From: Marinobacter sp. LQ44
GTDB taxonomy: Bacteria; Pseudomonadota; Gammaproteobacteria; Pseudomonadales; Oleiphilaceae
Assembly: GCF_001447155.2 (NCBI RefSeq)
Contig: NZ_CP014754.1
Coordinates: forward strand, 1,550,001-1,614,000
Direction of reading: 5' to 3'
DNA length: 64,000 bases
Part shown: positions 4,715 to 53,566 of the stretch, piece after piece
How the letters are laid out: the number at the start of each line of letters is the position of its first letter
Position numbering within the stretch: the stretch's first letter is position 1
Notes under the pieces: model-generated
Databases searched by the model: none
What the model was told of the DNA's origin: nothing
Seen by the model: only the letters and a program-made list of their open reading frames with translations
Translations under genes and position numbers: made by a program

Positions 4715-6964
4715 TTAAGCTCCAAAATTAATCGGTTCAAGGTCCACCAGCTCCACCCACTGCGTGCCGCCTTCCATTCCCGTCATCTGCCGGAAGGTTT
4801 TGGGGTTCTTATGTAAACTGAATGCTTCCACAACGCCATACACCGGCTGTTCCGTGGTCGAGTTGGTCGTTTTGGTCAGGCCATTACCAGTAAAGTGCTC
4901 ATTAGCGCCTGTACTGTTCTGAATACTTATTCGAGTATTAAATTTCTTTATCCCGTCCTGGCCAAGCCCCGCCTTTCTCAAATACGCCTTACGTATTTGC
5001 GGGTTGGCCCAAGCGGGTGGAGGCATGTTACTGATTAACGATTCATACTCCCCCGCATAGTCAGGCGTCATAACCTCCTTCGTCAAAGCAGGATTTTCGA
5101 CCTTGCCCGGCAACTTATCGTCAACAAACTTCGTGAGATTTCCGTATGTGGGAACAATCGTCTCAGCATCCGCATACCTAACTGCGTCCGCCTGATCGAT
5201 GATGGCCAGCTTGTACTTGGCATCTGGCTTGTAATTCACACCCATCGCTTCAGTGATCAATTTAGGGTCCGTATCCAGGTGCGCTATTTGATCAAAACTC
5301 GTTGACCAGACCTGCACACCGGCCGGACCTTCCTTACCCAATGTTCCGTTGTGGGGGCCATTTCGATGCACATGGGGCTCTTCTACCAAGCGGACAATGA
5401 ACTTCTCGTCTGCAAAACCCTCTTGAGCGATGCGGTGCAGCTGTGCCTGGGTGTACTTGGGCGAAGGGGCCTTGCCATTGGCGATGATGGAATTCCGAGC
5501 ATCTCCTAAAAGCTTCTTTGCCTCGTCAAAGGACCTGGGCAGCACTTTCCCTGGCCTCGTGCTTAGCTGGACGGGGTCGGGATCCACGCCCTTTGGACGC
5601 GGCGATGCTTCAGCCTCAAAACGATTTTTCCTGTTCAGGTCGAAATCGCGCCATATCTTGCGCAACCCTTGAAGCTTTAGCGCCTCGGCAAATCGCCCGA
5701 ATGCCGGCCCGAGCCCCGCCAGAATCCGAGCATGTCGGATACGGCTGGACGCCTGCGCCGCATTACCCGCTCCCAATGTGGTTGCCGCCAGCAAACCGGC
5801 CAAAACCAGCTCAAACGCTATCGCTCCGAAAATGTAGGCATAATCGGTATGGTGCTGAATGGCGGCATAATCGGTTACAAAGTCTTTCAGAGCAGCGCTG
5901 AGCTGAGCATCCGTCATAACCAGACTGGCCAACTCATATGCTTTTGCAATGTCCTCCCGACTGATGTCAGAGGGAGAGAACCCAATCGCTCGCACCCATC
6001 GCTCCCGGCGCGTGTCGTCATAGAGATTGTAGAAGGTCTCGTACCAGCTGCTGGCTCCGTTATCCTGGTTTGCAGACCATGCTGATTTAAGCCCGTCCAT
6101 CAATGTTTTGGTTGGATTAGCCAAATCACTGACGCCAACCACAAAATCAAACAGGCCGATCCCCGCGTCATAAGCGCCCTGAAACACCGCTCCGGTGCTC
6201 ACCAGAGCCTTTTCGTGGCGAGGCATCTGCTGGTAGACCGTTTCCCGGGCCTCGTAGTCCTTCCTTTCCTGCTCCAGCAGGCGCTGGAGGCCCGCTATGA
6301 TTGTCTTGCGTTCTTGCCGGACCACATCGTCTGTGGCGCTTGAGCCCAGTCTGACGGTGGCAAACCGGCCATGCAGGCCCTCCACCGAAGCGGCACCCTG
6401 ATGGTCCAGAACTCCGGTGACGCTTTCAAAATCCGTTCCTACCTCAAACGGCAGGTTCGCTACACCAGTGCCATCCGGCCAGCGATACTCAATGATCAGG
6501 CTATAGGGGCCTTTACCTGGTACGGGCTCCGCAACCGGCTCTGGTGCAAGCTGATAGTTTTGGGCGGCAGGCGCATGTAAGGAGTCTGATCGAACTCCTG
6601 GCCCGGCACTACCGCCGGTGGGCCAACGGTCTCGCAAACGGCTTGCCAGAGACGCCGGCAAATCAGAGCGGAGGTGTTCCGGACTGGCTGTGCGTTTGGT
6701 GAAGATACCAAAGGCTGCGCTATCCAGGCGGCCCAGAACCAGTTGGCCGCTTTGCAAGGCATCCAGTATTGCCTGGCGCTCACTGCTGGATGATTGCTCA
6801 AGGGCGCGATAGCCCCCATCCGGAGGTGGCTCTATGTGAGCACCCTGGTAACCGCGTGAAAAATAATCCTGTGCGATGGACACCGCGTCGGAAGGGTGTA
6901 GTAACGACGGCAAAATCCTCTCGGTGAAGCCGTAGCCACCAGCAACGTATAACTGATAGGACAC
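4715..6964 (-). CDS. Large polymorphic-toxin-like protein
   Basis: A 749-residue multidomain protein starting from GTG, with AAGGA upstream. There is no signal peptide. From N to C: a 150-residue head with no recognised PAAR or Rhs motif; a Ser/Gly/Ala-rich hinge around residues 105-140; a beta-sandwich-like stretch (LIIEYRWPDGTGVANLPFEV, about 160-215) of the kind found in effector 'pre-toxin' regions; a helical part with a hydrophobic segment (YIFGAIAFELVLAGLLAATTL, about 370-400); and a C-terminal 250 residues rich in His/Asn/Lys that would be the toxic domain. That last part has HRNGPHNGTLGKEGPAGVQV and ends in VELVDLEPINFGA; I cannot name its activity. The modular build and the directly following small acidic gene point to a secreted toxin, perhaps type VI. 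A non-toxic large accessory protein cannot be excluded. Confidence 0.55.
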   Translation of the reverse strand: MSYQLYVAGGYGFTERILPSLLHPSDAVSIAQDYFSRGYQGAHIEPPPDGGYRALEQSSSSERQAILDALQSGQLVLGRLDSAAFGIFTKRTASPEHLRSDLPASLASRLRDRWPTGGSAGPGVRSDSLHAPAAQNYQLAPEPVAEPVPGKGPYSLIIEYRWPDGTGVANLPFEVGTDFESVTGVLDHQGAASVEGLHGRFATVRLGSSATDDVVRQERKTIIAGLQRLLEQERKDYEARETVYQQMPRHEKALVSTGAVFQGAYDAGIGLFDFVVGVSDLANPTKTLMDGLKSAWSANQDNGASSWYETFYNLYDDTRRERWVRAIGFSPSDISREDIAKAYELASLVMTDAQLSAALKDFVTDYAAIQHHTDYAYIFGAIAFELVLAGLLAATTLGAGNAAQASSRIRHARILAGLGPAFGRFAEALKLQGLRKIWRDFDLNRKNRFEAEASPRPKGVDPDPVQLSTRPGKVLPRSFDEAKKLLGDARNSIIANGKAPSPKYTQAQLHRIAQEGFADEKFIVRLVEEPHVHRNGPHNGTLGKEGPAGVQVWSTSFDQIAHLDTDPKLITEAMGVNYKPDAKYKLAIIDQADAVRYADAETIVPTYGNLTKFVDDKLPGKVENPALTKEVMTPDYAGEYESLISNMPPPAWANPQIRKAYLRKAGLGQDGIKKFNTRISIQNSTGANEHFTGNGLTKTTNSTTEQPVYGVVEAFSLHKNPKTFRQMTGMEGGTQWVELVDLEPINFGA

Positions 6965-7212
6965 TGTTCCGTTTCCTTGTCCGTTGATCTATCCCTACGC
7001 TCTCCTGAGCGATATGGAACATACCTCTTGCGCCTCAAGAAATGCAAGCACCATGCGTGATCAACCACACAAACCTTCTGTAACCTAACGATATGGGCTA
7101 ACCTAAAGCCACAAAACCACGCAAAACCAGATGGTTGCAATCAAGAAGTAACGGCGGCGAGCGAGACCCGCCGCCATCTGGCCGCAGCTATTGTTGAACA
7201 AGGACTTTCAGC

Positions 7213-7914
7213 ATGACTACCGAATACAACGTGTACTGTGACGAATCCTGCCATCTGGAGAACGACGGCCAGAAAGCAATGGTGTTGGGGGCGGTCTGGT
7301 GCCCCAAAGATAAACGGCTGGAAATTGCCGAGCGAATTCGAGAAATCAAACAGAAACACGGCCTCGAACGGGGTTTTGAAATCAAATGGACCAAGGTGAG
7401 CCCATCAAAGTTTGCCTTCTATCAGGACATCATTGATTACTTTTTCGACGATGACGACCTGCATTTCCGTGGCCTGGTCGTTCCGGACAAAAGTGTGCTG
7501 GACCATGAAAGGCATCGACAGGACCACGACGAGTGGTACTACAAGATGTATTTCACAATGCTGAAAACCGTCTTTGACCCGGATTCACGCTACTACGTCT
7601 ACATCGACATTAAAGACACCCTGGGTCATGAGAAGGTCGAAAAGCTTCAGGACATTCTGTGCACCAATGTATACGACTTCTCCCGCAAAATGATTGCAGA
7701 CGTTAAACGGGTTCACTCCCATGAAGTCGAGCACCTGCAGATAGCGGACTTGCTGATAGGTGCCCTGTCCTATCTGCACCGCGAATTATCCGGAAATAGC
7801 GCCAAAGAAGCTCTCATCGCCAGAATCCGGCAGCGTAGCGGCTATCGGCTAACACTGAATACAATGATGCGCGAGCTGAAGTTTAATCTTTTGATTTGGA
7901 GCAGCAGGATTTGA
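7213..7914 (+). CDS. DUF3800 domain protein
   Basis: A 233-residue protein with the DUF3800 pattern: an N-terminal YNVYCDESCHLENDG strand with the conserved acidic pair, a central YYVYIDIKDT strand, and a C-terminal VEHLQIADLLIGALSYLH helix. DUF3800 proteins have an RNase H-like fold with acidic residues suited to metal binding; they are frequent in phages, mobile elements and near restriction or defence genes, but their biochemical role is not settled. AAGGA lies 8 bases upstream of the ATG. The gene stands alone between the divergent toxin and the next, interrupted ORF, which begins two bases after its stop. Confidence 0.8.
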   Translation: MTTEYNVYCDESCHLENDGQKAMVLGAVWCPKDKRLEIAERIREIKQKHGLERGFEIKWTKVSPSKFAFYQDIIDYFFDDDDLHFRGLVVPDKSVLDHERHRQDHDEWYYKMYFTMLKTVFDPDSRYYVYIDIKDTLGHEKVEKLQDILCTNVYDFSRKMIADVKRVHSHEVEHLQIADLLIGALSYLHRELSGNSAKEALIARIRQRSGYRLTLNTMMRELKFNLLIWSSRI

Positions 7915-7916
7915 CC

Positions 7917-8405
7917 ATGGATGGAACACCCGAGTAGCTACCCGAACTGGAGCTGTTTTCTGACTATGGCGGTGACTGGGAGCAGTACCTTGATGCGATT
8001 TACCAAATCTTTTGCCGGGATTTCGTGGACTCCAAGCCACTCTTCCGGGGACAGCGTCTGGCGTTAAAACGGCACCCGGTCATAGACGGGAAGGAGGCAA
8101 CCTTCTGGCACATGACCAGCGAAGGCAGCGCGGAATCAGAAAGAACACCGGATTTCAGGCGATGTGAACGAATCCGCTGGCCGCGTCCTGTCATCGAAAA
8201 CGAGAATGACCCGGCCTTGAAAGTGTGGTCAGAGAAACGAGGCAACGAAAACCGGATTCATCTGTGGTTTGAGGCGGAAGGCTATCTCGTCGTTTTAGCT
8301 GAGCGCGCAACCTACACACTCCCCTGGACGGCCTTCTACATCGAACGCCAACACCAACGGTACAAGTACACAAAACGCTGGAAACGAAACACAGGCAGGA
8401 AATAA
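7917..8405 (+). pseudogene. Conserved small protein with in-frame TAG at codon 7
   Basis: Starting at the ATG at 7917, two bases after the DUF3800 stop, the frame reads MDGTPE, a TAG at 7935-7937, then LPELELFSDYGGDWEQYLD and on without interruption to the stop at 8405. The open part after the TAG is about 155 residues and contains RTPDFRRCERIRWPRPVIEN and ATYTLPWTAFYIE, which look like a well-conserved soluble protein under selection. I recall similar proteins of unknown function starting with the same LPELELFSDYGGDW motif, but could not check. Only a GTG at 8025 would give a conventional restart, and that would discard the acidic N-terminal block. Either the gene is inactivated by a nonsense mutation, or an unusual start (CTG at 7947) is used. 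Co-transcription with DUF3800 is likely. Confidence 0.6.
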
Positions 8406-8435
8406 GGCTGGCCGCGCCCTCGAAGAGGACGGGGC

Positions 8436-8609
8436 CGTAACTCCTTCCACACTTACGCCCGAGGGCTGGTAGATGAGCTGTTCCGAACTATAGTGCTACC
8501 TCAGGCTAATTTCAATGACCTTTCGGCCACTTCGTATACAAAGGCGTTGGAATACACGCTGAGTAAAGCAAGAAAACATTTTGACGGAAAGGCATCATGG
8601 ACCATCTGA
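8436..8609 (+). pseudogene. Possible IS66-like transposase remnant
   Basis: An open frame without a plausible start reads TYARGLVDELFRTIVLPQ and later SATSYTKALEYTLSKAR before a TGA at 8607-8609. The '+ELF ... KALEYTLS' pattern resembles the C-terminal part of IS66 TnpC proteins, just before the DNxxER motif, which is missing here. No terminal repeats were seen. The call rests on a short pattern and could be wrong; the stretch may belong to another decayed gene. Confidence 0.35.
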
Positions 8610-8795
8610 TAATCGTCAAAACTCCGGAGGAGCACGAGGCGGCTCTGGAGCGCCTTATGGCACTGATGGAGGCTGATCCAGAAGAGGACTCCCGGGAAGC
8701 TGAAGAACAAAGATCTCGTTCCCTTTATCGGCTCGGCTTCCAAGGTGAGTGAAGTGCTTAATGGTGGCCGCGCCTGTCGAAAACGCAGGCAATAA
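8597..8795 (+). pseudogene. HigA-type antitoxin remnant (deletion and frameshift)
   Basis: From the ATG at 8597 the frame reads MDHLIIVKTPEEHEAALERL and MALMEADPEEDSREAEE, the usual N-terminus of a HigA-type (COG5499) antitoxin. It then leaves frame and stops at 8752. In the next frame, from about 8703 to 8795, the sequence reads KDLVPFIGSASKVSEVLNGG, the recognition helix of the same family, followed by a short unrelated tail and a stop. Roughly 40-50 residues between the two parts are missing. So this is a decayed antitoxin with an internal deletion, not an active gene. No matching HigB toxin is visible upstream. Confidence 0.75.
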
Positions 8796-8891
8796 AAAAC
8801 CCCGCAGCGGCTTCACTGCAGAGCAGATCAACCGATTGGGGCCGTGTTGAGACGAATAATAGACAAGCGTCGAAAATCACTCAAGTGTGGT

Positions 8892-9503
8892 TTACCCCAA
8901 AAGCGACAACTCCGCCGCTATGTAATGGCCAATCATACTCGCCAGTCCGTCCGCCATTTCATCGAAACTGACCATCGGGTCCGGGTCAGACAAATGACGG
9001 ATAACGGCGAATATGCCGCCATTAATTCCGATGTAGGTGATCGCTGGAATGCGGCTAACCCGAAGGGTTTCCGGGTGCTCCATCAGGTAGCGCATGATGA
9101 CGTTATTGAGCACCTTGTAGAGCGGGTCCAGGTGGAGCTCAAAGTCCACCGCCATGGCGTATCGCACACACTTGAGGTACCGGCCATCGTCCTGCTCAAG
9201 AAAACTCCGGAACTGGTTCAGCAATGTGCGAATGGCCTCATCAATGGGCATCTGTACCAGGGTTGGCGTTAAGGGCTTGATCATCGCCGCTGTGTCGGAG
9301 ATGAAGCGTTGGCTCATGGCGTTGAAGATCGACTGTTTGTTCTCGAAGTATTCATAAAGCGAACCTACCCCCACACCTGCTATTTCAGCGATGTGTCGTG
9401 TTGTTGTGTCAGCCGGCCCGCGCTGACTCAGGGCAATAAATCCGGCTTCTACGATCGCGTCCACCGTGGCGCGCGAGCGATCCTGTTTTGGTTTTCTGGG
9501 CAT
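8892..9503 (-). CDS. TetR/AcrR family transcriptional regulator
   Basis: A 203-residue one-component repressor. The N-terminal helix-turn-helix is visible at residues about 17-60: AIVEAGFIALSQRGPADTTT, RHIAEIAGVGVGSLYEYFEN, then KQSIFNAM. The rest is the ligand-binding helical domain. It is divergent from the SDR gene with 166 bases between, and a near-perfect inverted repeat (9522-9535) lies just upstream of its own ATG, so autoregulation and control of the oxidoreductase cluster are likely. The inducer is unknown; given the targets, a ketone, fatty acid or hydrocarbon-derived compound is a reasonable guess. Confidence 0.88.
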   Translation of the reverse strand: MPRKPKQDRSRATVDAIVEAGFIALSQRGPADTTTRHIAEIAGVGVGSLYEYFENKQSIFNAMSQRFISDTAAMIKPLTPTLVQMPIDEAIRTLLNQFRSFLEQDDGRYLKCVRYAMAVDFELHLDPLYKVLNNVIMRYLMEHPETLRVSRIPAITYIGINGGIFAVIRHLSDPDPMVSFDEMADGLASMIGHYIAAELSLLG

Positions 9504-9521
9504 AATTTTCCGAATTGAATC

Positions 9522-9535
9522 CGAACAAGCGTTCG
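9522..9535. promoter_or_regulatory. Candidate TetR operator
   Basis: CGAAC-AAGC-GTTCG is a perfect 5-bp inverted repeat with a 4-base centre, in the tetR/SDR divergent promoter region and 19 bases from the tetR start codon. The GAACxxxxGTTC form is common for TetR-family operators. Confidence 0.5.
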
Positions 9536-9669
9536 CTCTAATCTGCAGTCAGCAGGGCGCAAACACAAGCAGGGCAAGGCTTTCAGGCCTATTCGGCACA
9601 GGTTTTGTCCCTTTCGGGCGGCACAAGCCCTGGCAGCGTCACACTTACATCAAAACTGCGGAAATCTTC

Positions 9670-10500
9670 ATGTTCAATAAATCTCTGACTAAAAATGCTC
9701 GTGCAGTCATCACTGGCGCTGGCAGCGGCATCGGCAAAGCGCTGGCACTGGAGCTCGCCCGGCGCGGGGGCCTTGTGGTGTGCTCTGACATCAACCTGGA
9801 CGCCGCGGAACAAACCGCCAGCGAAGTCCGCCGCCTCGGTGGCCAGGCATGGGCGGTCGCCTGTGATGTCAGCAAGCTGGAACAGGTACAGGCGCTGGCT
9901 GATAAAGCCGACGAGTTGCTGCCGGAACCGGTCAACCTGGTGATTAACAACGCGGGCGTTGGTGTGGGCGGTAAAACCATTGGCGAAACGTCTATCGAAG
10001 ACTGGGAGTGGACGGTCAACATCAACCTGTGGGGCGTGGTCTATGGCTGCCATGTGTTCGCGCCCCTGCTGCGCCTGCAGGAGCAGGCCGGCATTATCAA
10101 TGTGGCCTCAACCGCCAGCTTCTCCGCGGCTCCGCTTATGGGCCCCTATAACGCCACCAAGGCGGCTGCGCTGGCGATATCAGAAACCCTGGCGGCAGAA
10201 CTCTCCGGCACCGGCGTCAGCGTCACCGCGCTGTGCCCTACCCTCGTGAAAACCAACATCTCGGCCAACGGCCGCATACAGGGCGAATCCAATGACCTGT
10301 TTAACCGGCTGATGGACCGCATCGGCATGTCCGCCGACAAGGTTGCTCGCATGGCTCTGGATGGCCTGGATAACAAACAGCTGTACGTCATGCCACAGGT
10401 CGATGCCCGCATGATCTGGCGAATCAAACGTCTGCTGCCGAATTCCTATGCAGCGATCACGGGGCTTATTAATCGCCGGATGACGTCCAAGTTCGTCTGA
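9670..10500 (+). CDS. Short-chain dehydrogenase/reductase
   Basis: A 276-residue classical SDR. The NAD(P)-binding TGAGSGIG is at residues 15-22, the NNAG motif at 93-96, the catalytic serine in STASF (about 147), and the YxxxK pair in YNATK (Y160, K164). The acidic residue at the end of strand 2 (CSDINLD, D40) favours NAD over NADP. The start at 9670 places the Rossmann motif at the usual distance; an upstream in-frame start at 9466 would lie inside tetR and its promoter. The C-terminal extension MIWRIKRLLPNSYAAITGL is basic and hydrophobic, as in SDRs that associate with membranes. First gene of a cluster with the diiron protein and a Baeyer-Villiger monooxygenase, suggesting oxidation of an alcohol to a ketone for the monooxygenase. 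Confidence 0.9.
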   Translation: MFNKSLTKNARAVITGAGSGIGKALALELARRGGLVVCSDINLDAAEQTASEVRRLGGQAWAVACDVSKLEQVQALADKADELLPEPVNLVINNAGVGVGGKTIGETSIEDWEWTVNINLWGVVYGCHVFAPLLRLQEQAGIINVASTASFSAAPLMGPYNATKAAALAISETLAAELSGTGVSVTALCPTLVKTNISANGRIQGESNDLFNRLMDRIGMSADKVARMALDGLDNKQLYVMPQVDARMIWRIKRLLPNSYAAITGLINRRMTSKFV

Positions 10501-44824: not shown

Positions 44825-47800
44825 ATGAGCAATCTGGCCCATAGCCGCCTTTCAGACGGCCCTCCCTGCACCTTCTGTGATTTCATCGTTGCGGTGCTTG
44901 GCAGCAAGCACAGCCAGGAGCAGCGCCCGGTGGTTTTTCAGACGGCAGAAGCCCCGTTCCCCGGGGTTGCACGGCGCCTGCCGGATGGTATCCAGAAAAG
45001 TTATCTGCGCGAGGTCAGCAACGCGGAATCCGCCCTGCACATCTGGCCCTGGCGTAACCAGCCCGCCAGCCGGGCGGTGCTGGAGGTGGATGCAGAATCC
45101 GGCGCGCCGATTCACCTTCCGCTCACGGATGCTCCGGCGCCCGAAAGCATCCAGTCCGAAACCACCGCCAATATCCTGATGCCAACCGTGCCCATGGCCT
45201 GGGTACGGGGAATGAATCACGAAGGCAAACACCTGACCTGGCCCGCCCTCGCCCGCCCCGGTTTTCTGTATCTGTTCCGCAGCGGCATGCTCTGGCGAGA
45301 GCTGCAAATCGCCTGGGAAGGCAACCGGCCGCAATTCCGCGACGTGAGGTTGGCGGACCACCGCACCGAAGACGGCCAATTTACCGAAGACCGTCGCCCC
45401 GCCGTGGGCAAACCGCTGACGGATGTGTGGATACCCGTTCGCCTCGACGGCCAGGACCAGTCCCTTGAAGCCGCCTTCAGCGAATCTCCCCTCTCTGCAG
45501 CGCGGCTGAATTGCCTGCAGAGCGATTCCGGGCTTCGCCACTACCGGTGCAGCCAGTTCCGGGACCTGTACCCGGCGGACCAACCCCAGATGGGCTTCGC
45601 CCGCTGGCCGGATGCCGCCAAGCGAACGGTGTTCCGATTAGATAAAGTCGAAGCACAGAGACCCAGGGCGCCGGCCAAAGAATGGCAGTTTGAGCGGCCC
45701 TGGGAGTACCTGGCCGATACTACCGGAACCTACGCCGGCAAAGCACTGGACATGGCGGCCAGCCTTTATGAAGAGTGGAATGCCGGAGAGCGCACCGAGC
45801 CCCTGGCCCCCTTCGAACACCCCGAACCGGCCGCGCTTGGCATTGCGATTCAAAAAGACCTGGACCGGTCCAGTGAAACCCCACCGGAACGGCCATTCAG
45901 CTACGATGAATGGCGAACCAGCGATTGCCAGACAGACGCCCTTGGCGATTTGAGAAACCGGGGCGTTTGCGGTCTGCGCATTGAAGATCATTTTTACGAG
46001 CTGCGGCACCAGCAAGCACGCATCAACACGGCGCGCCATCTGCTGGAACTGTGTGCCGAAAAAGCCCGTAAGAATCCGCAACTGGAAAACGCCCTCCTGG
46101 TAAACCAGATCATCCTGCCGGGCCGGATCGGTCGCCAGAAGAACCCGCTGTTCAAATACAGCCTGGCATTGCCTTCCAGTGGTCACCAGAAAATTCGCCG
46201 GGTACTGATGACCGAAGAGCGAACCCTGGGCCAACACTACCTGACCCTGGCCCAGGCCGAACTGCTGCAATGCCTGAAACGCCAGCCCTATCAACAAGCC
46301 CTGGCGGACCTGTTCAGCACCGAAGGTTTCGACTATGCCGGCGCTTTCCGTTGCGCCGGGCATTTTATCAGCGACACCCTGGAACCCGCCTGCAAGCAAG
46401 ACCCACTGGACCCGGAACACAGCCAGCCCAGCCCGGACAGCGACGGCAAAATCTGGGTAAGATCACTTTGTACCGAACAGGCAGCCGCCAGTGCCTCGCG
46501 AGAGGAGGTCTCTCTCGCCCGCATGTTATGGCCGCAAACCACACCAGACAGCCAAACCGAACCCTACCAGCCCCCGGAAACGCCTGAACCCAACGATGGC
46601 ACGGGTGTATTCCGGGGTGCCGCCCTCGCTGCCCTGGAAAAGCTGGATTTGCCGGAGGATGTCAGCGAAATACTGACCGTGGAAGGCCTTAGGTTGGCAG
46701 AGGATATCCAAAGCGGTGCCTCAAACACCCTGATGCTGGCAGGAATGCGATCAGGAATGAGAACACTGGACAGCGCTCATAGAGAACTGCACCAGTCCAT
46801 CCGTTCCGCCATGGCCGCGCTGGAGAACAACGACCGACAACTCCAGAACCTGAACGACGAACACACCCGCCTGGCCCAGCGCCGCGCAGCCCTGAAAGCC
46901 GAACACGACGCGGCCAGCCAGGAATGGATGAAGCGCAACAGCGATGAAGCATTCAGGAAAGAACAGGCCGCCGCCAAAGCCCTCAAAGACTTTGACCAAG
47001 CCAGCGCACGCCTGGAACAGCAACACGCCCAAACCCGGCAGGCCATCCAGCATCGCCTGATGGCCCAGCGCATTGCTGCCATGGCAAACCCCATGGAAGG
47101 CATACGCCGGGCCATGCCTGAAATGCTGCCGGATTTGCAGCAAATGACATTGAGCGACGCCATTGCCCAAGGCAAATACGTGCTTGGCCTGGAAGATCTG
47201 GGGCCAGACGGCGCACGCTATAACCCGGAAACGCCCGCCGCAGGCAAGGCACTGGTTTGGGTACTGAGCCGGGACAAGCCCACCACCCAGGCTATCCAGG
47301 CACTGACCCGGGCCGAGAATCAGCTGACCCTGGCACGCCGGGCCCTGGCCGAGGCTAATGGCAACCATGAAGAACTCAAGGCGAAGTTGCAGGCGGCCCA
47401 GAGCCGGTACAATCAGGTGGTCGACGAACTGAAGCAGACCGGCGGCCGGATTCGGGATATCAACGCGGAGATTCGCAAGCTGGAGGGCGAAGCCAAAGCC
47501 CACCGGGTGGACCTCAACGCTGCCGAGCGAAGCCGGTTGCACCGGGTGCTGAATACACCGGCGTTGCCGTTGGTGGTGTTGGCTATTGAGGCGGTTAATG
47601 TGGCGAATGCGTTTGGTTCTCTAAAGAGAACATCCCGTGAACGCAGCGGTTATCGAGCTATTTCTGGACTATTGTCTTCTGGGTACGGCGGAGCCTTAGC
47701 GGCAATTCTTTTGTCTGAGCGCTTTGCTAACGAGGCAACCAGAAACAGGATCGCCTCCGCACTCCAGTATCAATTCAGAGGCGAGGGCGCCAAATTCATC

Positions 47801-48754
47801 GCAAGAATCTTCAGGGCAGAAGCTCTCACGGTCAAAATGCTGCTTGGCGGCATAGGAGGATTAGCGCTTACTGGTGTTAGCCTTTCTGACACAATCTATG
47901 CAATAAACACTGGCGATCAGGCTGCTCTCGGTCATGGTATCGTTACTGTCGGTGGTGTCGTGACAACCCTTTCTGCATTGGTGCCAGCCCAACTCACTCT
48001 ACTGGGCATGGGTCCTCTGGGCTGGGCCGGCCTCTGCCTGATCCTCGGGGGTGCGGCACTTGTTGCCCTCTACGAAGACGAACCGATAGAGAACTGGCTG
48101 AAGAACGGTCCTTTTGGCGAACACGACGGACTGCCGCATCTGCAAGGCGACAACAACGCACTGGAAGCCTGGTACCGGCTGGTGTACTTGCTCTCTCAGG
48201 TGCGAGTAACCCTATCCCCGATTCCGGAAATTACCCGCGTAGCGCTAAAACGCCAGGGGTTGGACAATCATGATCTTGCCCAGGCAACACACCTCATCCG
48301 CCTGGAAACCAATTTACCGGGCTTGACCGGCTTCACGGAACAACAAATGACGTTCAAGCTTCAACTACTCAGCCACCGAGTTAAACAGGATAGCAACCAC
48401 TCGGTTCCATTGGCCTCTCAGCCGGTTCCAGACACCGAAATGCACAGATACATTCTCCGGGAGGGCGCCACGCCGGATGGTTACGAATACATCGTCAGAA
48501 CACCCTCTCCCCATACGGAAACGACCAAGTTTCTTCGCATACCGCTCAGCACTCACAATGTGAGCTACTCCTGGCAGCCAAAAGCCCAAGTTCGCCTGGA
48601 AACCGGCATCCGGGGACTCGCTTTTCCGGCACCGCCACCCAAGGATTCAACCCTTTTCGACGCCAAAGATAATGAGCATACGGAGCCGGACTTCAGTGAC
48701 AAAAAGCAGCTTTTCTGGATCAATAACTTCAGCAACCCGGGAGCCACGGGATGA
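44825..48754 (+). CDS. Type VI secretion effector, VasX/BTH_I2691-like
   Basis: A 1,309-residue protein without a signal peptide. The N-terminal third has CTFCDFIVAVLG and the LARPGFLYLFRSGMLWRELQ stretch typical of the VasX-type N-terminal region. Two long coiled coils (about 645-760 and 840-905) come next, then a hydrophobic block with four or five potential membrane helices (about 908-1085: LPLVVLAIEAVNVANAFG, YGGALAAILLS, LLGGIGGLALTGVSLSD, VPAQLTLLGMGPLGWAGLCL) and the motif EDEPIENWLKNGPFG that closes the membrane part in these pore-forming effectors. Expected to insert into the inner membrane of a competitor cell. AAGGA lies 8 bases before the ATG at 44825. The stop overlaps the first of four DUF6708-like genes (ATGA). 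No vgrG or adaptor gene adjoins it. Confidence 0.8.
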   Translation: MSNLAHSRLSDGPPCTFCDFIVAVLGSKHSQEQRPVVFQTAEAPFPGVARRLPDGIQKSYLREVSNAESALHIWPWRNQPASRAVLEVDAESGAPIHLPLTDAPAPESIQSETTANILMPTVPMAWVRGMNHEGKHLTWPALARPGFLYLFRSGMLWRELQIAWEGNRPQFRDVRLADHRTEDGQFTEDRRPAVGKPLTDVWIPVRLDGQDQSLEAAFSESPLSAARLNCLQSDSGLRHYRCSQFRDLYPADQPQMGFARWPDAAKRTVFRLDKVEAQRPRAPAKEWQFERPWEYLADTTGTYAGKALDMAASLYEEWNAGERTEPLAPFEHPEPAALGIAIQKDLDRSSETPPERPFSYDEWRTSDCQTDALGDLRNRGVCGLRIEDHFYELRHQQARINTARHLLELCAEKARKNPQLENALLVNQIILPGRIGRQKNPLFKYSLALPSSGHQKIRRVLMTEERTLGQHYLTLAQAELLQCLKRQPYQQALADLFSTEGFDYAGAFRCAGHFISDTLEPACKQDPLDPEHSQPSPDSDGKIWVRSLCTEQAAASASREEVSLARMLWPQTTPDSQTEPYQPPETPEPNDGTGVFRGAALAALEKLDLPEDVSEILTVEGLRLAEDIQSGASNTLMLAGMRSGMRTLDSAHRELHQSIRSAMAALENNDRQLQNLNDEHTRLAQRRAALKAEHDAASQEWMKRNSDEAFRKEQAAAKALKDFDQASARLEQQHAQTRQAIQHRLMAQRIAAMANPMEGIRRAMPEMLPDLQQMTLSDAIAQGKYVLGLEDLGPDGARYNPETPAAGKALVWVLSRDKPTTQAIQALTRAENQLTLARRALAEANGNHEELKAKLQAAQSRYNQVVDELKQTGGRIRDINAEIRKLEGEAKAHRVDLNAAERSRLHRVLNTPALPLVVLAIEAVNVANAFGSLKRTSRERSGYRAISGLLSSGYGGALAAILLSERFANEATRNRIASALQYQFRGEGAKFIARIFRAEALTVKMLLGGIGGLALTGVSLSDTIYAINTGDQAALGHGIVTVGGVVTTLSALVPAQLTLLGMGPLGWAGLCLILGGAALVALYEDEPIENWLKNGPFGEHDGLPHLQGDNNALEAWYRLVYLLSQVRVTLSPIPEITRVALKRQGLDNHDLAQATHLIRLETNLPGLTGFTEQQMTFKLQLLSHRVKQDSNHSVPLASQPVPDTEMHRYILREGATPDGYEYIVRTPSPHTETTKFLRIPLSTHNVSYSWQPKAQVRLETGIRGLAFPAPPPKDSTLFDAKDNEHTEPDFSDKKQLFWINNFSNPGATG

Positions 48755-49848
48755 CAACGGATAAACCTGCATCGGGATACTACGGCCCGAAGGCCTATGA
48801 TTCCGGACATCTCCCCCAGCAAAAACGCCCGGCACCTGGTGCTAATCCGGCACAGCCCTGGTTTAACCGAAAAGCCGATCGGAAGCTGCCCTGGGGGCAC
48901 ACAGAGGATGTGGCCCCCCAGTCTTATCGGACGGATTATTCTCCAGCGACGCTCAGGGGTTTCGAGAGAGAACCGAATAATTTCGCTAACATTGATTTCC
49001 ACCAGCGTATTGACCATGAGCGCTATCGCCATGCTACGGCGGCACTGAGAACCCGTATTCTTCTGTTTTTCAATGCATTCGGTAATCCTGTCGTCATCGC
49101 CTTTATGATGTTCCCAATCGCCTTAGGGTTCGCAGGCCATCTCCATATTCGGCCAAAGAGTGAGCCGTTCGGGACGACACTTCTTGCATTTCTCCCAATA
49201 CTAGCAACGTTCTTAGGTCCCTTAATCGCCTGCAACCTCATCCCCACTGCCCTGTTCAAACTCTTCCCCCGGCAGCTCATCAAGCCCGACAAGGGCCCGC
49301 TGTGGGAACTCAATCGCCGCACCGGCCTGGTAACGGTGTTTCATTACGATAGAAAAGGAGTCTGGGGCAAAACCGGCCATCCGGAGGAAGAAACCGCTCC
49401 GTTTTACGAATTCGATGCCTACACCTCCAACGAACTGATCCACGGCGGCGGGGTGGTGCATACCCTGTACCTGGCCCACCGGTACCGCAACATCCTGATC
49501 TCCATCGGCACCCTGATCGGCAAAACCAACCCCGAAGAATGCTACGCCCTGTGGGACATGTTCCAGAACTTCATGGACACCAGCCGGCCGCTACCGGACA
49601 TTCCCCTGTGGGAAGAACATCGCGCCAATGACCCGGTCACCGCCGAACACGACCGACGAACCAACCGGCCGCTTCGTTACTGGAGGGATATGGATAACGA
49701 TACCTGGAAGCAAAAGAATGAGGAGATGGGACTTCAGGTACTGCGGCTGAACACCCCGGGGCGGCTGGATATCATGAGGAATAGTTGGGCGTACTCACCA
49801 AGACCTCGGCGACAGCGGCCCGTCACCTCAAGGCAGGCCACTGAGTGA
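48751..49848 (+). CDS. DUF6708-like membrane protein, copy 1 (putative immunity)
   Basis: A 365-residue protein with two central membrane segments (about residues 105-125 and 145-170) between a charged N-terminal part and a long C-terminal domain with LIHGGGVVHTLYLAHRYRNI and NPEECYALWDMFQNFMDTSR. The C-terminal part matches what is annotated as DUF6708, often found beside T6SS effectors; a role as immunity protein is inferred from position. Its ATG overlaps the effector stop, so it should be made whenever the effector is. Membrane segment: FMMFPIALGFAGHLHIRP. It shares an almost identical first 115 codons with copy 2. Confidence 0.75.
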   Translation: MTTDKPASGYYGPKAYDSGHLPQQKRPAPGANPAQPWFNRKADRKLPWGHTEDVAPQSYRTDYSPATLRGFEREPNNFANIDFHQRIDHERYRHATAALRTRILLFFNAFGNPVVIAFMMFPIALGFAGHLHIRPKSEPFGTTLLAFLPILATFLGPLIACNLIPTALFKLFPRQLIKPDKGPLWELNRRTGLVTVFHYDRKGVWGKTGHPEEETAPFYEFDAYTSNELIHGGGVVHTLYLAHRYRNILISIGTLIGKTNPEECYALWDMFQNFMDTSRPLPDIPLWEEHRANDPVTAEHDRRTNRPLRYWRDMDNDTWKQKNEEMGLQVLRLNTPGRLDIMRNSWAYSPRPRRQRPVTSRQATE

Positions 49849-49867
49849 AGAGTATGGAAGCCACAGG

Positions 49868-50965
49868 ATGACAACGGATAAACCGTCACCGGGATATTAC
49901 AGCCCGAAGGCCTACAATTCTGAACACCTCCCCCAGCAAAAGCGCCCGGCACCTGGCGCCAATCCGGCACAGCCCTGGTTTAATCGAAAAGCCGACCGAA
50001 AACTGCCCTGGGGGCACACAGAGGATGTGGCCCCCCAGTCTTATCGGACGGATTATTCTCCAGCGACGCTCAGGGGTTTCGAGAGAGAACCGAATAATTT
50101 CGCTAACATTGATTTCCACCAGCGTATTGACCATGAGCGCTATCGCCATGCTACGGCGGCACTGAGAACCCGTATTCTTCTGTTTTTCAATGCATTCGGT
50201 AATCCTGTCGTCATCGCCTTTATGATGCTGCCGGTAACAATTGGCTTTTTCTCCCACTGGAGACTCAGCCCACCAGATGAAACCTTTGGCCAGATGCTGA
50301 TCGCCTTTATCCCAATTCTGGCCATTTTTGTAGGTCCCCTTATCGCCTGCAACCTCGTCCCCACTGCCCTGTTCAAACTCTTCCCCCGGCAGCTCATCAA
50401 GCCCGACAAAGGCCCGCTGTGGGAGCTCAATCGCCGCACAGGCCTGGTAACGGTGTTTCATTACGACAAGAAAGGCGCCTGGGGTAAAACCGGCCAGCCG
50501 GAGGAAGAAACCGCGCCGTTTTACGAATTCGATGCCTACACCTCCAACGAACTGATCCACGGCGGCGGGGTGGTGCATACCTTGTACCTGGCCCACCGGT
50601 ACCGCAACATCCTGATCCCCATCGGCACCCTGATCGGCAAAACCAGCCCCGAGGAGTGCTACGCCCTGTGGGACATGTTCCAGAACTTCATGGACACCAG
50701 CCGGCCACTGCCGGACATTCCCCTGTGGGAAGAACATCGCGCCAATGACCCGGTCACCGCCGAACACGACCAGCGAACCAATCGGCCGCCCCGTTACTGG
50801 CGAGATATGGATAACGATACCTGGAAACAGAAAAACGACGAGATGGCGCTTCAGGTGCTGCGGCTGAACACGCCAGGGCGGCTGGATATCATGCGGAATA
50901 GTTGGGCGTACTCACCAAGGCCTCGGCGACAGCGGCCCGTCGCCTCACGGCAGGCCACAGAGTGA
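49868..50965 (+). CDS. DUF6708-like membrane protein, copy 2 (putative immunity)
   Basis: A 365-residue paralogue, 19 bases after copy 1. The N-terminal half is nearly that of copy 1 (YRTDYSPATLRGFEREPNNF), but the membrane segments differ (FMMLPVTIGFFSHWRLSP, then FGQMLIAFIPILAIFVG) and are identical to those of copy 4. By eye 50153-50771 equals 52387-53005 without a difference. The short spacer with GGAAGCCACAGG before the ATG is the same in front of copies 2, 3 and 4. So this gene is a mosaic of copy 1-like and copy 4-like parts. Confidence 0.75.
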   Translation: MTTDKPSPGYYSPKAYNSEHLPQQKRPAPGANPAQPWFNRKADRKLPWGHTEDVAPQSYRTDYSPATLRGFEREPNNFANIDFHQRIDHERYRHATAALRTRILLFFNAFGNPVVIAFMMLPVTIGFFSHWRLSPPDETFGQMLIAFIPILAIFVGPLIACNLVPTALFKLFPRQLIKPDKGPLWELNRRTGLVTVFHYDKKGAWGKTGQPEEETAPFYEFDAYTSNELIHGGGVVHTLYLAHRYRNILIPIGTLIGKTSPEECYALWDMFQNFMDTSRPLPDIPLWEEHRANDPVTAEHDQRTNRPPRYWRDMDNDTWKQKNDEMALQVLRLNTPGRLDIMRNSWAYSPRPRRQRPVASRQATE

Positions 50966-50984
50966 AGAGTATGGAAGCCACAGG

Positions 50985-52082
50985 ATGACAACCGATAAAC
51001 CGTCACCGGGATACTACGGTCCGAAGGCCTATGATTCCGAACAGCTTCCTCTGCAAAAGCGCCCGGCACCGGGCGCCAACCCAGCCTTGCCCTGGTTTAA
51101 CCGAAAAGCCGACCGGAAGCTACCTTGGGGCCACACAGAGGATGTGGCCCCCCAGTCTTATCGCACGGATTATTCCCCAGCAACGCTCAGACGCTTCGAG
51201 AAGGAGCCGAACAATTTCGCCAACGTTGATTTCCACCAGCGTATTGACCACGAGCGCTATCGCCATGCGACGGCGTCACTAAGAACCCGTATCCTTCTAT
51301 TTTTCAGCGCTTTTGGTCACCCTATACTCATCGGTATTGTTTCAATTCCGATGCTCATTGCCGTCGCAATTGCCTATTACCACAAACCCAGCAGCACGGA
51401 TCACGTTGACTATTTCATAGAGATCCTATGGGCGCTTTCCTGGGTATTTGTTCCCCTTTTCGCCTGCAATCTCATCCCCACCGCCCTGTTCAAACTCTTC
51501 CCCCGGCAGCTCATCAAGCCGGACAAGGGCCCGCTGTGGGAACTCAATCGCCGCACCGGCCTGGTGACGGTGTTTCACTACGATAAAAAAGGAGTCTGGG
51601 GCAAAACCGGTCAGCCAGAAGAAGAGTCAGCACCGTTTTACGAGTTCGATGCCTACACCTCCAACGAACTCATTCACGGCGGCGGGGTGGTGCATACCTT
51701 GTACCTGGCCCATCGGTACCGCAACATCCTGATCCCCATCGGCTCCCTGATCGGCAAAACCAACCCCGAGGAGTGCTACGCCCTGTGGGACATGTTCCAG
51801 AACTTCATGGACACCAGCCGGCCACTGCCGGACATTCCCCTGTGGGAAGAGCATCGCGCCAATGACCCGGTTACCGCCGAACACGACCGACGAATCAATC
51901 GCCCGCCCCGTTACTGGCGAGATATGGATAACGATACCTGGAAACAGAAAAACGACGAGATGGCGCTTCAGGTGCTCCGGCTGAGCACCCCGGGGCGGCT
52001 GGATATCATGCGGAATAGTTGGGTGTCCTCACCAAGACCTCGGCGACAGCGGCCCGTCACCTCAAGGCAGGCCACTGAGTGA
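50985..52082 (+). CDS. DUF6708-like membrane protein, copy 3 (putative immunity)
   Basis: A 365-residue paralogue with the most divergent membrane part of the four: FGHPILIGIVSIPMLIAVAI, AYYHKPSSTDHVDYFIEI, LWALSWVFVPLFACN. The N-terminal block is copy 1/2-like with changes (LRRFEKEPNNFANVDFHQ), and the C-terminal 190 residues are nearly the same as in the others (PEEESAPFYEFDAYTSNELI). If the membrane region is what recognises a pore-forming effector, this copy should have a different specificity. It is 19 bases after copy 2. Confidence 0.75.
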   Translation: MTTDKPSPGYYGPKAYDSEQLPLQKRPAPGANPALPWFNRKADRKLPWGHTEDVAPQSYRTDYSPATLRRFEKEPNNFANVDFHQRIDHERYRHATASLRTRILLFFSAFGHPILIGIVSIPMLIAVAIAYYHKPSSTDHVDYFIEILWALSWVFVPLFACNLIPTALFKLFPRQLIKPDKGPLWELNRRTGLVTVFHYDKKGVWGKTGQPEEESAPFYEFDAYTSNELIHGGGVVHTLYLAHRYRNILIPIGSLIGKTNPEECYALWDMFQNFMDTSRPLPDIPLWEEHRANDPVTAEHDRRINRPPRYWRDMDNDTWKQKNDEMALQVLRLSTPGRLDIMRNSWVSSPRPRRQRPVTSRQATE

Positions 52083-52101
52083 AGAGTATGGAAGCCACAG
52101 G

Positions 52102-53187
52102 ATGACAACGGATAAACCTGCATCGAGATACTACGGCCCGAAGGCCTATGATTCCGAACAGCTTCCTCTGCAAAAGCGCCCGGCTCCGGGCGCCAACCCG
52201 GCACAGCCCTGGTTCAACCGAAAAGCCGACCGGAAACTGCCCTGGGGCCACACAGAGGATGTCGCACCACAGATCATTCGACGGCGAAATCGCCCCGAAA
52301 TACTCCGAAAGTTCGAGAAGAACCCATTGCCGTTCGGGGACCTTCAGACCCATCAGCGCATTGATCATGAATGCTATCGCCATGCGACGGCGGCACTGAG
52401 AACCCGTATTCTTCTGTTTTTCAATGCATTCGGTAATCCTGTCGTCATCGCCTTTATGATGCTGCCGGTAACAATTGGCTTTTTCTCCCACTGGAGACTC
52501 AGCCCACCAGATGAAACCTTTGGCCAGATGCTGATCGCCTTTATCCCAATTCTGGCCATTTTTGTAGGTCCCCTTATCGCCTGCAACCTCGTCCCCACTG
52601 CCCTGTTCAAACTCTTCCCCCGGCAGCTCATCAAGCCCGACAAAGGCCCGCTGTGGGAGCTCAATCGCCGCACAGGCCTGGTAACGGTGTTTCATTACGA
52701 CAAGAAAGGCGCCTGGGGTAAAACCGGCCAGCCGGAGGAAGAAACCGCGCCGTTTTACGAATTCGATGCCTACACCTCCAACGAACTGATCCACGGCGGC
52801 GGGGTGGTGCATACCTTGTACCTGGCCCACCGGTACCGCAACATCCTGATCCCCATCGGCACCCTGATCGGCAAAACCAGCCCCGAGGAGTGCTACGCCC
52901 TGTGGGACATGTTCCAGAACTTCATGGACACCAGCCGGCCACTGCCGGACATTCCCCTGTGGGAAGAACATCGCGCCAATGACCCGGTCACCGCCGAACA
53001 CGACCGACGAACCAAACGCCCGCCCCGTTACTGGCGGGACATGGATAACGATACCTGGAAACAGAAAAACGACGAGATGGCGCTTCAGGTGCTCCGGCTG
53101 AACACCCCAGGGCGGCTGGATATCATGAGGAATAGTTGGGCACACTCACCAAGGCGACGCCGGCAACATATGGCTTCAGCAGAGTAG
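52102..53187 (+). CDS. DUF6708-like membrane protein, copy 4 (putative immunity)
   Basis: A 361-residue paralogue and the last of the array. Residues about 52-95 are unique (IIRRRNRPEILRKFEKNPLP, then FGDLQTHQRIDHECYRH), while the membrane part and most of the C-terminal domain are identical to copy 2. The C-terminus ends SPRRRRQHMASAE instead of the shared RPRRQRPVTSRQATE, and the repeated spacer is lost after it, marking the end of the tandem unit. Expression probably depends on transcription from the effector gene. Confidence 0.75.
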   Translation: MTTDKPASRYYGPKAYDSEQLPLQKRPAPGANPAQPWFNRKADRKLPWGHTEDVAPQIIRRRNRPEILRKFEKNPLPFGDLQTHQRIDHECYRHATAALRTRILLFFNAFGNPVVIAFMMLPVTIGFFSHWRLSPPDETFGQMLIAFIPILAIFVGPLIACNLVPTALFKLFPRQLIKPDKGPLWELNRRTGLVTVFHYDKKGAWGKTGQPEEETAPFYEFDAYTSNELIHGGGVVHTLYLAHRYRNILIPIGTLIGKTSPEECYALWDMFQNFMDTSRPLPDIPLWEEHRANDPVTAEHDRRTKRPPRYWRDMDNDTWKQKNDEMALQVLRLNTPGRLDIMRNSWAHSPRRRRQHMASAE

Positions 53188-53320: not shown

Positions 53321-53566
53321 ATGGACACAATCAGTGTAAACAAGTTTAGAGATAACTTGGAAAATGTTGTTGAGCAGGTAATTAGTCAGCATGAACCGGT
53401 CAAGGTTACACGCCGAGCCGGAGAAGCTTTCGTGGTGATGAGTGCTGAGGACTGGGAGCGAGAGCAGGAAACCCTTCTCGCTCTCCAAAGTAAGAGCCTG
53501 ATGCAGCAAATTGGTAGAGATTTGGCCAGGCTCAATGCAAAGACGAGAAAGCCGCCCCGCCACTAA
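53321..53566 (+). CDS. Phd/YefM family antitoxin (no toxin partner)
   Basis: An 81-residue protein with the Phd/YefM pattern: MDTISVNKFRDNLENVVEQV, then HEPVKVTRRAGEAFVVMSAE and DWEREQETLLAL. Family members are antitoxins that bind their own promoter through the N-terminal part and neutralise a RelE-, YoeB- or Doc-type toxin through the C-terminal helix. GAGGTG precedes the ATG. The next gene is convergent aceF, 29 bases away, so there is no toxin gene downstream, and none upstream. Either an orphan or a remnant of a lost module. Confidence 0.85.
   Translation: MDTISVNKFRDNLENVVEQVISQHEPVKVTRRAGEAFVVMSAEDWEREQETLLALQSKSLMQQIGRDLARLNAKTRKPPRH

Follow-up and report, generated by a model that had tools for sequence, protein, structure and literature searches.

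The stretch of DNA analyzed here (the window, 64,000 nucleotides) covers positions 1550001 to 1614000 of a one-contig Marinobacter genome of 4,435,564 bases. On its forward strand, which carries all features described below, an open reading frame of 1,309 codons runs from an ATG at 44825 to a stop at 48752-48754; from the reading frame, profile searches, and a structure model, its product (44825-48754) is predicted to be a pore-forming T6SS-type effector. Four intact, related genes for two-helix membrane proteins span 48751-53187, 3' of the effector. Copy 1 (48751-49848, 365 amino acids), the presumed cognate gene, has its ATG at 48751 in an ATGA overlap with the effector stop, and copies 2 (49868-50965, 365 amino acids), 3 (50985-52082, 365 amino acids), and 4 (52102-53187, 361 amino acids) each follow a 19-base spacer (49849-49867, 50966-50984, and 52083-52101, respectively). 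This gene order, with its overlap and spacers, had been correctly given in an initial annotation of the sequence. The last 12 bases of the first spacer resemble the 3' end of the effector gene at 10 of 12 positions by an eye count. Right after the array lies a Phd/YefM-type antitoxin gene (53321-53566, E 4.5e-16), and the same downstream flank occurs in a related locus, L023.

Two further loci of this kind were seen in the same genome, one at 0.86 Mb with another such effector and three immunity-like genes (L017, 6099-14769) and one at 2.58 Mb with an effector and one immunity-like gene. A profile search of the genome found one TssK, four VgrG, and three DUF4123 matches, none of them near the window locus; therefore, delivery of the effector would need parts encoded elsewhere.

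Pattern matching places a MIX-type motif, ARPGFLYLF, at residues 143 to 151 of the effector (45251-45277). The pattern, given as hRxGhhYhh in PMC12909789, is present in 2 of 2,000 shuffles of the protein, and a slightly looser version occurs within the first 420 residues of 95 of 100 paired effectors. The effector had been called VasX/BTH_I2691-like, and what we find is kinship under the curated cutoffs of both families: the BTH_I2691 model NF041559 reached 51.2 of 150 bits (E 7.5e-14) over residues 821 to 1119, aligned through the C-terminal part of the model, and VasX_N (PF20249) matched weakly, at 18.5 of the 27 bits that Pfam sets (E 0.0023). Public records name the effectors P0121, P0130, P0131, and P0132 "ABC transporter permease," which is apparently a misannotation.

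Hydrophobic segments of the effector lie at about residues 908-934, 945-964, 1000-1021, and 1033-1085. The last 510 residues were modeled from 46 sequences (mean pLDDT 79.3, pTM 0.64). A Foldseek comparison of this model with the PDB gave as top match the Ptx2 toxin of Pseudomonas aeruginosa (9qpv; E 1.8e-3, probability 0.72, TM-score 0.17 by query), a result that is no more than suggestive of the fold of the Tke5/Ptx2 toxic region. From sequence comparison we delimited two patches and placed them on the model. Patch X (residues 934-964; 47624-47716) comprises the tip of the first hydrophobic hairpin and the second membrane helix, and sits on a membrane hairpin in the predicted structure; patch Y (residues 966-997; 47720-47815) comprises the short helices of the linker between membrane helices 2 and 3.

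The model of the immunity-like protein (104 sequences, mean pLDDT 86.9, pTM 0.83) has short helices within residues 57-73, then two long ones (113-133 and 140-171), and ends in a C-terminal domain of mixed beta/alpha structure. The array begins directly 3' of the effector and its proteins have two predicted membrane helices, as in T6SS immunity, with the membrane location itself a prediction. The label DUF6708-like, also from the initial annotation, was dropped because PF20455 (DUF6708) did not match and profile-profile comparison was weak. None of the four copies matched any Pfam family at E up to 1, PF20455 was found in 0 of 104 relatives at E up to 0.1 and was not found at the window locus in the genome profile search, and the best of the comparisons with three DUF6708 subgroups gave a probability of 17.8% (E 0.0014, 94 columns).

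Copies 2, 3, and 4 are 90%, 83%, and 83% identical to copy 1, respectively. Codon comparison agrees with the initial annotation that the C-terminal parts are nearly constant and that the membrane segment comes in three versions (copy 1; copies 2 and 4; copy 3), but a second variable module had been overlooked. The first module, TM (codons 112-158), corresponds to the helices at 113-133 and 140-171 of the predicted structure and is of type a in copy 1 (49084-49224), type b in copy 2 (50201-50341), type c in copy 3 (51318-51458), and again type b in copy 4 (52435-52575), where it is identical to that of copy 2. Between copies 1 and 3 this module holds 37 nonsynonymous and 6 synonymous codon differences; codons 159-345 hold 11 and 31. 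The second module, Nv (codons 57-83), corresponds to the helices at 57-73 and has two main versions, type 1 in copies 1 to 3 (48919-48999, 50036-50116, and 51153-51233) and type 2 in copy 4 (52270-52350), which differs there from each of the other copies by 17 to 18 nonsynonymous and 4 synonymous codon differences. Copies 2 and 4 share an identical block of 619 nucleotides (50153-50771) and copies 1 and 2 one of 225 nucleotides; because of these blocks, sequence exchange between copies looks recent.

The same effector family is present in five close relatives, and the closest named loci are all from Marinobacter: sp. Kmv20 (L021), M. santoriniensis (L022), sp. SS5-14b (L023), M. halodurans (L024), and M. 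koreensis (L025). The window effector diverges most from those of L021 and L022 in patches X and Y. With patch and module types assigned by eye, the effectors of the window, L022, and L021 are A1, A2, and B1 for X/Y, and the adjoining immunity genes are a1, a2, and b1 for TM/Nv. Hence, X type A (window and L022) goes with TM type a of the first gene and X type B (L021) with TM type b, and Y type 1 (window and L021) goes with Nv type 1 and Y type 2 (L022) with Nv type 2. The L023 effector (6641-10004) is broken: its likeness ends at about residue 932, some 230 membrane-region residues are gone, and a different frame encodes the tail. The remnant of X is of type B, and the intact immunity gene is TM type b, Nv type 2. 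Over the window, its relatives, and database proteins, effectors occur as A1, A2, B1, B2, C1, and D2 and immunity proteins as a1, a2, b1, b2, c1, c2, and d2, so that all four combinations of types A/B with 1/2 are present on both sides.

Judged by the downstream flank, L021 and L023 occupy the same genomic site as the window, but their upstream flank matches that of the window over only about 120 to 130 bases. Each holds one immunity-like gene where the window has four, although both are draft assemblies in which a single copy could be a repeat collapse. The 3' end of that single gene resembles the 3' end of copy 4, consistent with an array that grew at its effector end.

To measure covariation, we took from the loci read 100 pairs, each made up of an effector of at least 1,000 amino acids and the gene next to it on the downstream side. 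The data are pairwise segment identities, kept where the effector core was at least 0.65 and the immunity C-domain at least 0.55 identical; immunity modules were regressed on six effector segments, and immunity labels were permuted within groups of related loci. Over the full set of 80 loci (131 pairs in 19 groups), X was a predictor of TM (+0.57; 0 of 1,000 permutations as large) and Y of Nv (+0.60; 0 of 1,000), and the cross terms were small (TM on Y, +0.03, 205 of 1,000; Nv on X, −0.12, 321 of 1,000). Since the patches had been chosen in the window's own group, the regression was rerun without the window and L021 to L025 (127 pairs, 75 loci, 17 groups). The outcome was similar: +0.56 for TM on X (0 of 2,000), +0.05 for TM on Y (620 of 2,000), +0.57 for Nv on Y (5 of 2,000), and −0.07 for Nv on X (357 of 2,000), and TM depended as well on post, the segment that follows Y (+0.39, 34 of 2,000). 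When one group at a time was left out, the X-TM term ranged from 0.53 to 0.62 and the Y-Nv term from 0.50 to 0.60.

Scans of the whole effector were also made without reference to the patches. For TM the maximum fell at residues 931-950 (r 0.64), and a lower peak followed at 1011-1030 (0.48); the 91 scan windows outside 900-1140 had a maximum of 0.37 and a median of 0.04. For Nv the maximum fell at 971-990 (0.63), with a nearly equal value at 1271-1290 (0.62). We conclude that, as far as sequence covariation can tell, the X-TM coupling is well localized. The Y-Nv coupling is weaker and less localized, and may in part be linkage, because Nv also couples with effector residues 1231-1290 (r 0.55 to 0.62).

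Linkage could in principle account for all of this covariation, if the 3' end of the effector gene and the 5' end of the immunity gene recombine as one block. The two genes overlap, Nv covaries with effector residues 1231-1290, and the strongest pair in a first, partial map was effector 1231-1250 with immunity 29-43 (r 0.80), which are neighbors on the DNA, so this coupling speaks for linkage there; recombination of effector-immunity modules has also been published for Vibrio cholerae (PMC5361080). As a full explanation we nevertheless consider linkage unlikely. In the joint regression X predicts TM and not Nv, and Y predicts Nv and not TM, even though on the DNA both Y and Nv are situated between X and TM. 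So are the segments N and link and the effector C terminus. With Y and the effector C terminus already in the model, the X-TM term holds at +0.52 (all loci) after N, Nv, link, and C are added. Moreover, the window and L021 differ at X (identity 0.58) and at TM (0.57), whereas the segments between are alike (post, 0.95; N, 0.95; Nv, 0.89).

Simple counts are less discriminating. In the 75 close pairs (core identity of 0.75 or more; pairs not independent), TM was alike in 7 of 9 pairs with X alike and different in 64 of 66 with X different, and Nv was alike in 10 of 10 pairs with Y alike and in 26 of 65 with Y different. The cross tables show association as well: 6 of 10 pairs with Y alike also had TM alike, and 62 of 65 with Y different had TM different, while Nv was alike in 8 of 9 pairs with X alike and in 28 of 66 with X different. 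The separation of X-TM from Y-Nv therefore comes from the joint regression only. There are also exceptions. L117, whose effector frame is interrupted, matches L113 at X (1.00) and Y (0.95) but reaches just 0.47 at TM; TM is similar within L137/L140 (0.71) and within L111/L117 (0.77), where X is at 0.57 and 0.65, respectively, and the latter pair has Y at 0.49 with Nv at 0.86; and L038/L044 have X at 0.84 with TM at 0.62. In L030, X of the second effector is 0.65 identical both to L032 and to the first effector of L030, unlike TM of its immunity gene, which is closer to L032. Finally, Y is of type 2 in P0129 and Nv of type 1 in P0010, which would be a mismatch if the two are adjacent.

Arrays are common at such loci. 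Two or more immunity-like genes are present at 39 of the 106 loci with a full-length one, a minimum count wherever a contig ends, and a published case has 12 homologues (PMC13340143); the impression that four genes are unusual is thus not supported. The locus in the window is a probable T6SS immunity array of four copies, and TM of copies 2 and 4 is 98% identical to that of the first gene of L021. More broadly, in 14 of 42 later copies TM is at least 75% identical to that of the first gene at a locus from another species; for one of them, in L111, it is also identical to that of its own first gene. For 12 of 51 later genes an effector tail is present in the 500 bases that precede the gene (L064 is counted here, although its "later" gene is a fragment of a disrupted first one), and in 10 the tail ends at most 20 bases from the start. 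Effector C-terminal fragments of about 50 to 70 residues were seen directly before later genes in L024 (8466-8690 and 9717-9980), L111, and L029. Separately, an 8.4-kb contig of Vreelandella songnenensis (L069, 1-8036) shows seven tandem immunity-like frames with no effector in view.

The later copies could have arisen by neutral duplication of the resident immunity gene and raise its dose only, and the 619 identical nucleotides of copies 2 and 4 do indicate that duplication or conversion occurs. We regard this as quite improbable, given that later copies diverge from their own first gene chiefly in the recognition modules (median identity, 0.26 for TM and 0.90 for the C-domain) and that all four frames in the window are intact.

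We know of no protection assay for the subfamily to which the window proteins belong, which counts toward a third possibility, that they act as chaperones in secretion or belong to the toxin itself. The overlap of the effector with the first gene would suit this as well, but it is very improbable: Tke5 is known to have a DUF4123 protein as its adaptor, which binds to the N-terminal MIX domain (PMC12909789), whereas variation here follows the pore region, and PMC13340143 lists as the V3 immunity protein one that is annotated as DUF6708 and encoded at the equivalent position.

The best reading of the sequences is that the first gene is cognate to the resident effector and that the later genes may have been kept from other effector alleles. 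We think it likely that the locus encodes a pore-forming T6SS effector with a membrane immunity array that recognizes the effector in two places and serves as an archive of earlier effector types. Its observed basis is the anatomy of the locus, the covariation, the assortment of patches, the matches of later copies to first genes elsewhere, and the effector tails between genes. Two suggestions of the initial annotation, that the membrane part recognizes the effector pore and that the array covers several effector variants, gain support from the patch-to-module covariation and from the matches to other species' first genes, respectively.

Physical contact, neutralization, and the order of events, which we infer, would be as follows. 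The immunity protein would insert its two-helix hairpin (TM) in the inner membrane, where it would meet the first membrane hairpin of the effector (patch X), while the short N-terminal helical module (Nv) would meet patch Y, in the linker that joins membrane helices 2 and 3. The C-terminal domain, being conserved, would do a job common to all copies, presumably blocking insertion or pore assembly. Recombination would bring in a new effector 3' end together with its matching immunity gene, and the older immunity gene would stay downstream. The array would then be a record of earlier effector types and would shield the cell against relatives still carrying them. We lean, by a narrow measure, toward the more specific proposal of a two-part combinatorial code, in which separately exchangeable modules match X to TM and Y to Nv and the array is a list of resisted types.

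To our knowledge, immunity recognition of membrane-inserting T6SS toxins and the role of orphan arrays have been little tested. The present comparison names candidate contact regions on both partners and predicts which array member stops which effector allele, for which natural effector and immunity alleles of differing types exist. The covariation suggests how protection can stay both specific and stockpiled and, if the code is true, an array could be read as a list of resisted effector types and resistance between strains predicted from sequence. Two-part effector/immunity matching is statistically supported by these alignments, and we met no account of two matched patches in effector/immunity pairs in the part of a largely open-access literature that the search covered.

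The putative immunity array itself is of an already known kind, published for S. rhizophila tsi3 and V. cholerae. In the S. rhizophila tse3-tsi3 region (14 kb), a BTH_I2691-type predicted pore-former is followed by the immunity gene tsi3a and its 12 homologues, much as in the window; Tsi3a is annotated as DUF6708, a model that the window proteins do not match, and patch-to-module matching is not described in the part of PMC13340143 available. Tke5 of P. putida, whose toxic helical region with predicted membrane helices is neutralized by Tki5, and its P. aeruginosa counterpart Ptx2 resemble the window effector in having a MIX motif, a helical region with predicted membrane helices, and a beta-rich C terminus, but Tke5 is encoded with an adaptor, a VgrG, and one immunity gene (PMC12909789), and no match to VgrG or DUF4123 lies near the locus in the window. 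Membrane immunity proteins specific for membrane-inserting toxins are also known for a pore-forming colicin and a CDI ionophore, and CDI toxin/immunity pairs are highly polymorphic; these systems use other carriers, and neither a tandem array nor two-patch matching is described in the parts available of PMC9558359 and PMC11630599. The arrays of V. cholerae, attributed to effector displacement (PMC5361080), are like the window in having orphan immunity genes 3' of an effector that resemble the cognate genes of other strains; the window differs from them in its module-by-module exchange inside genes, its shared C-terminal domain, and its long identical blocks.
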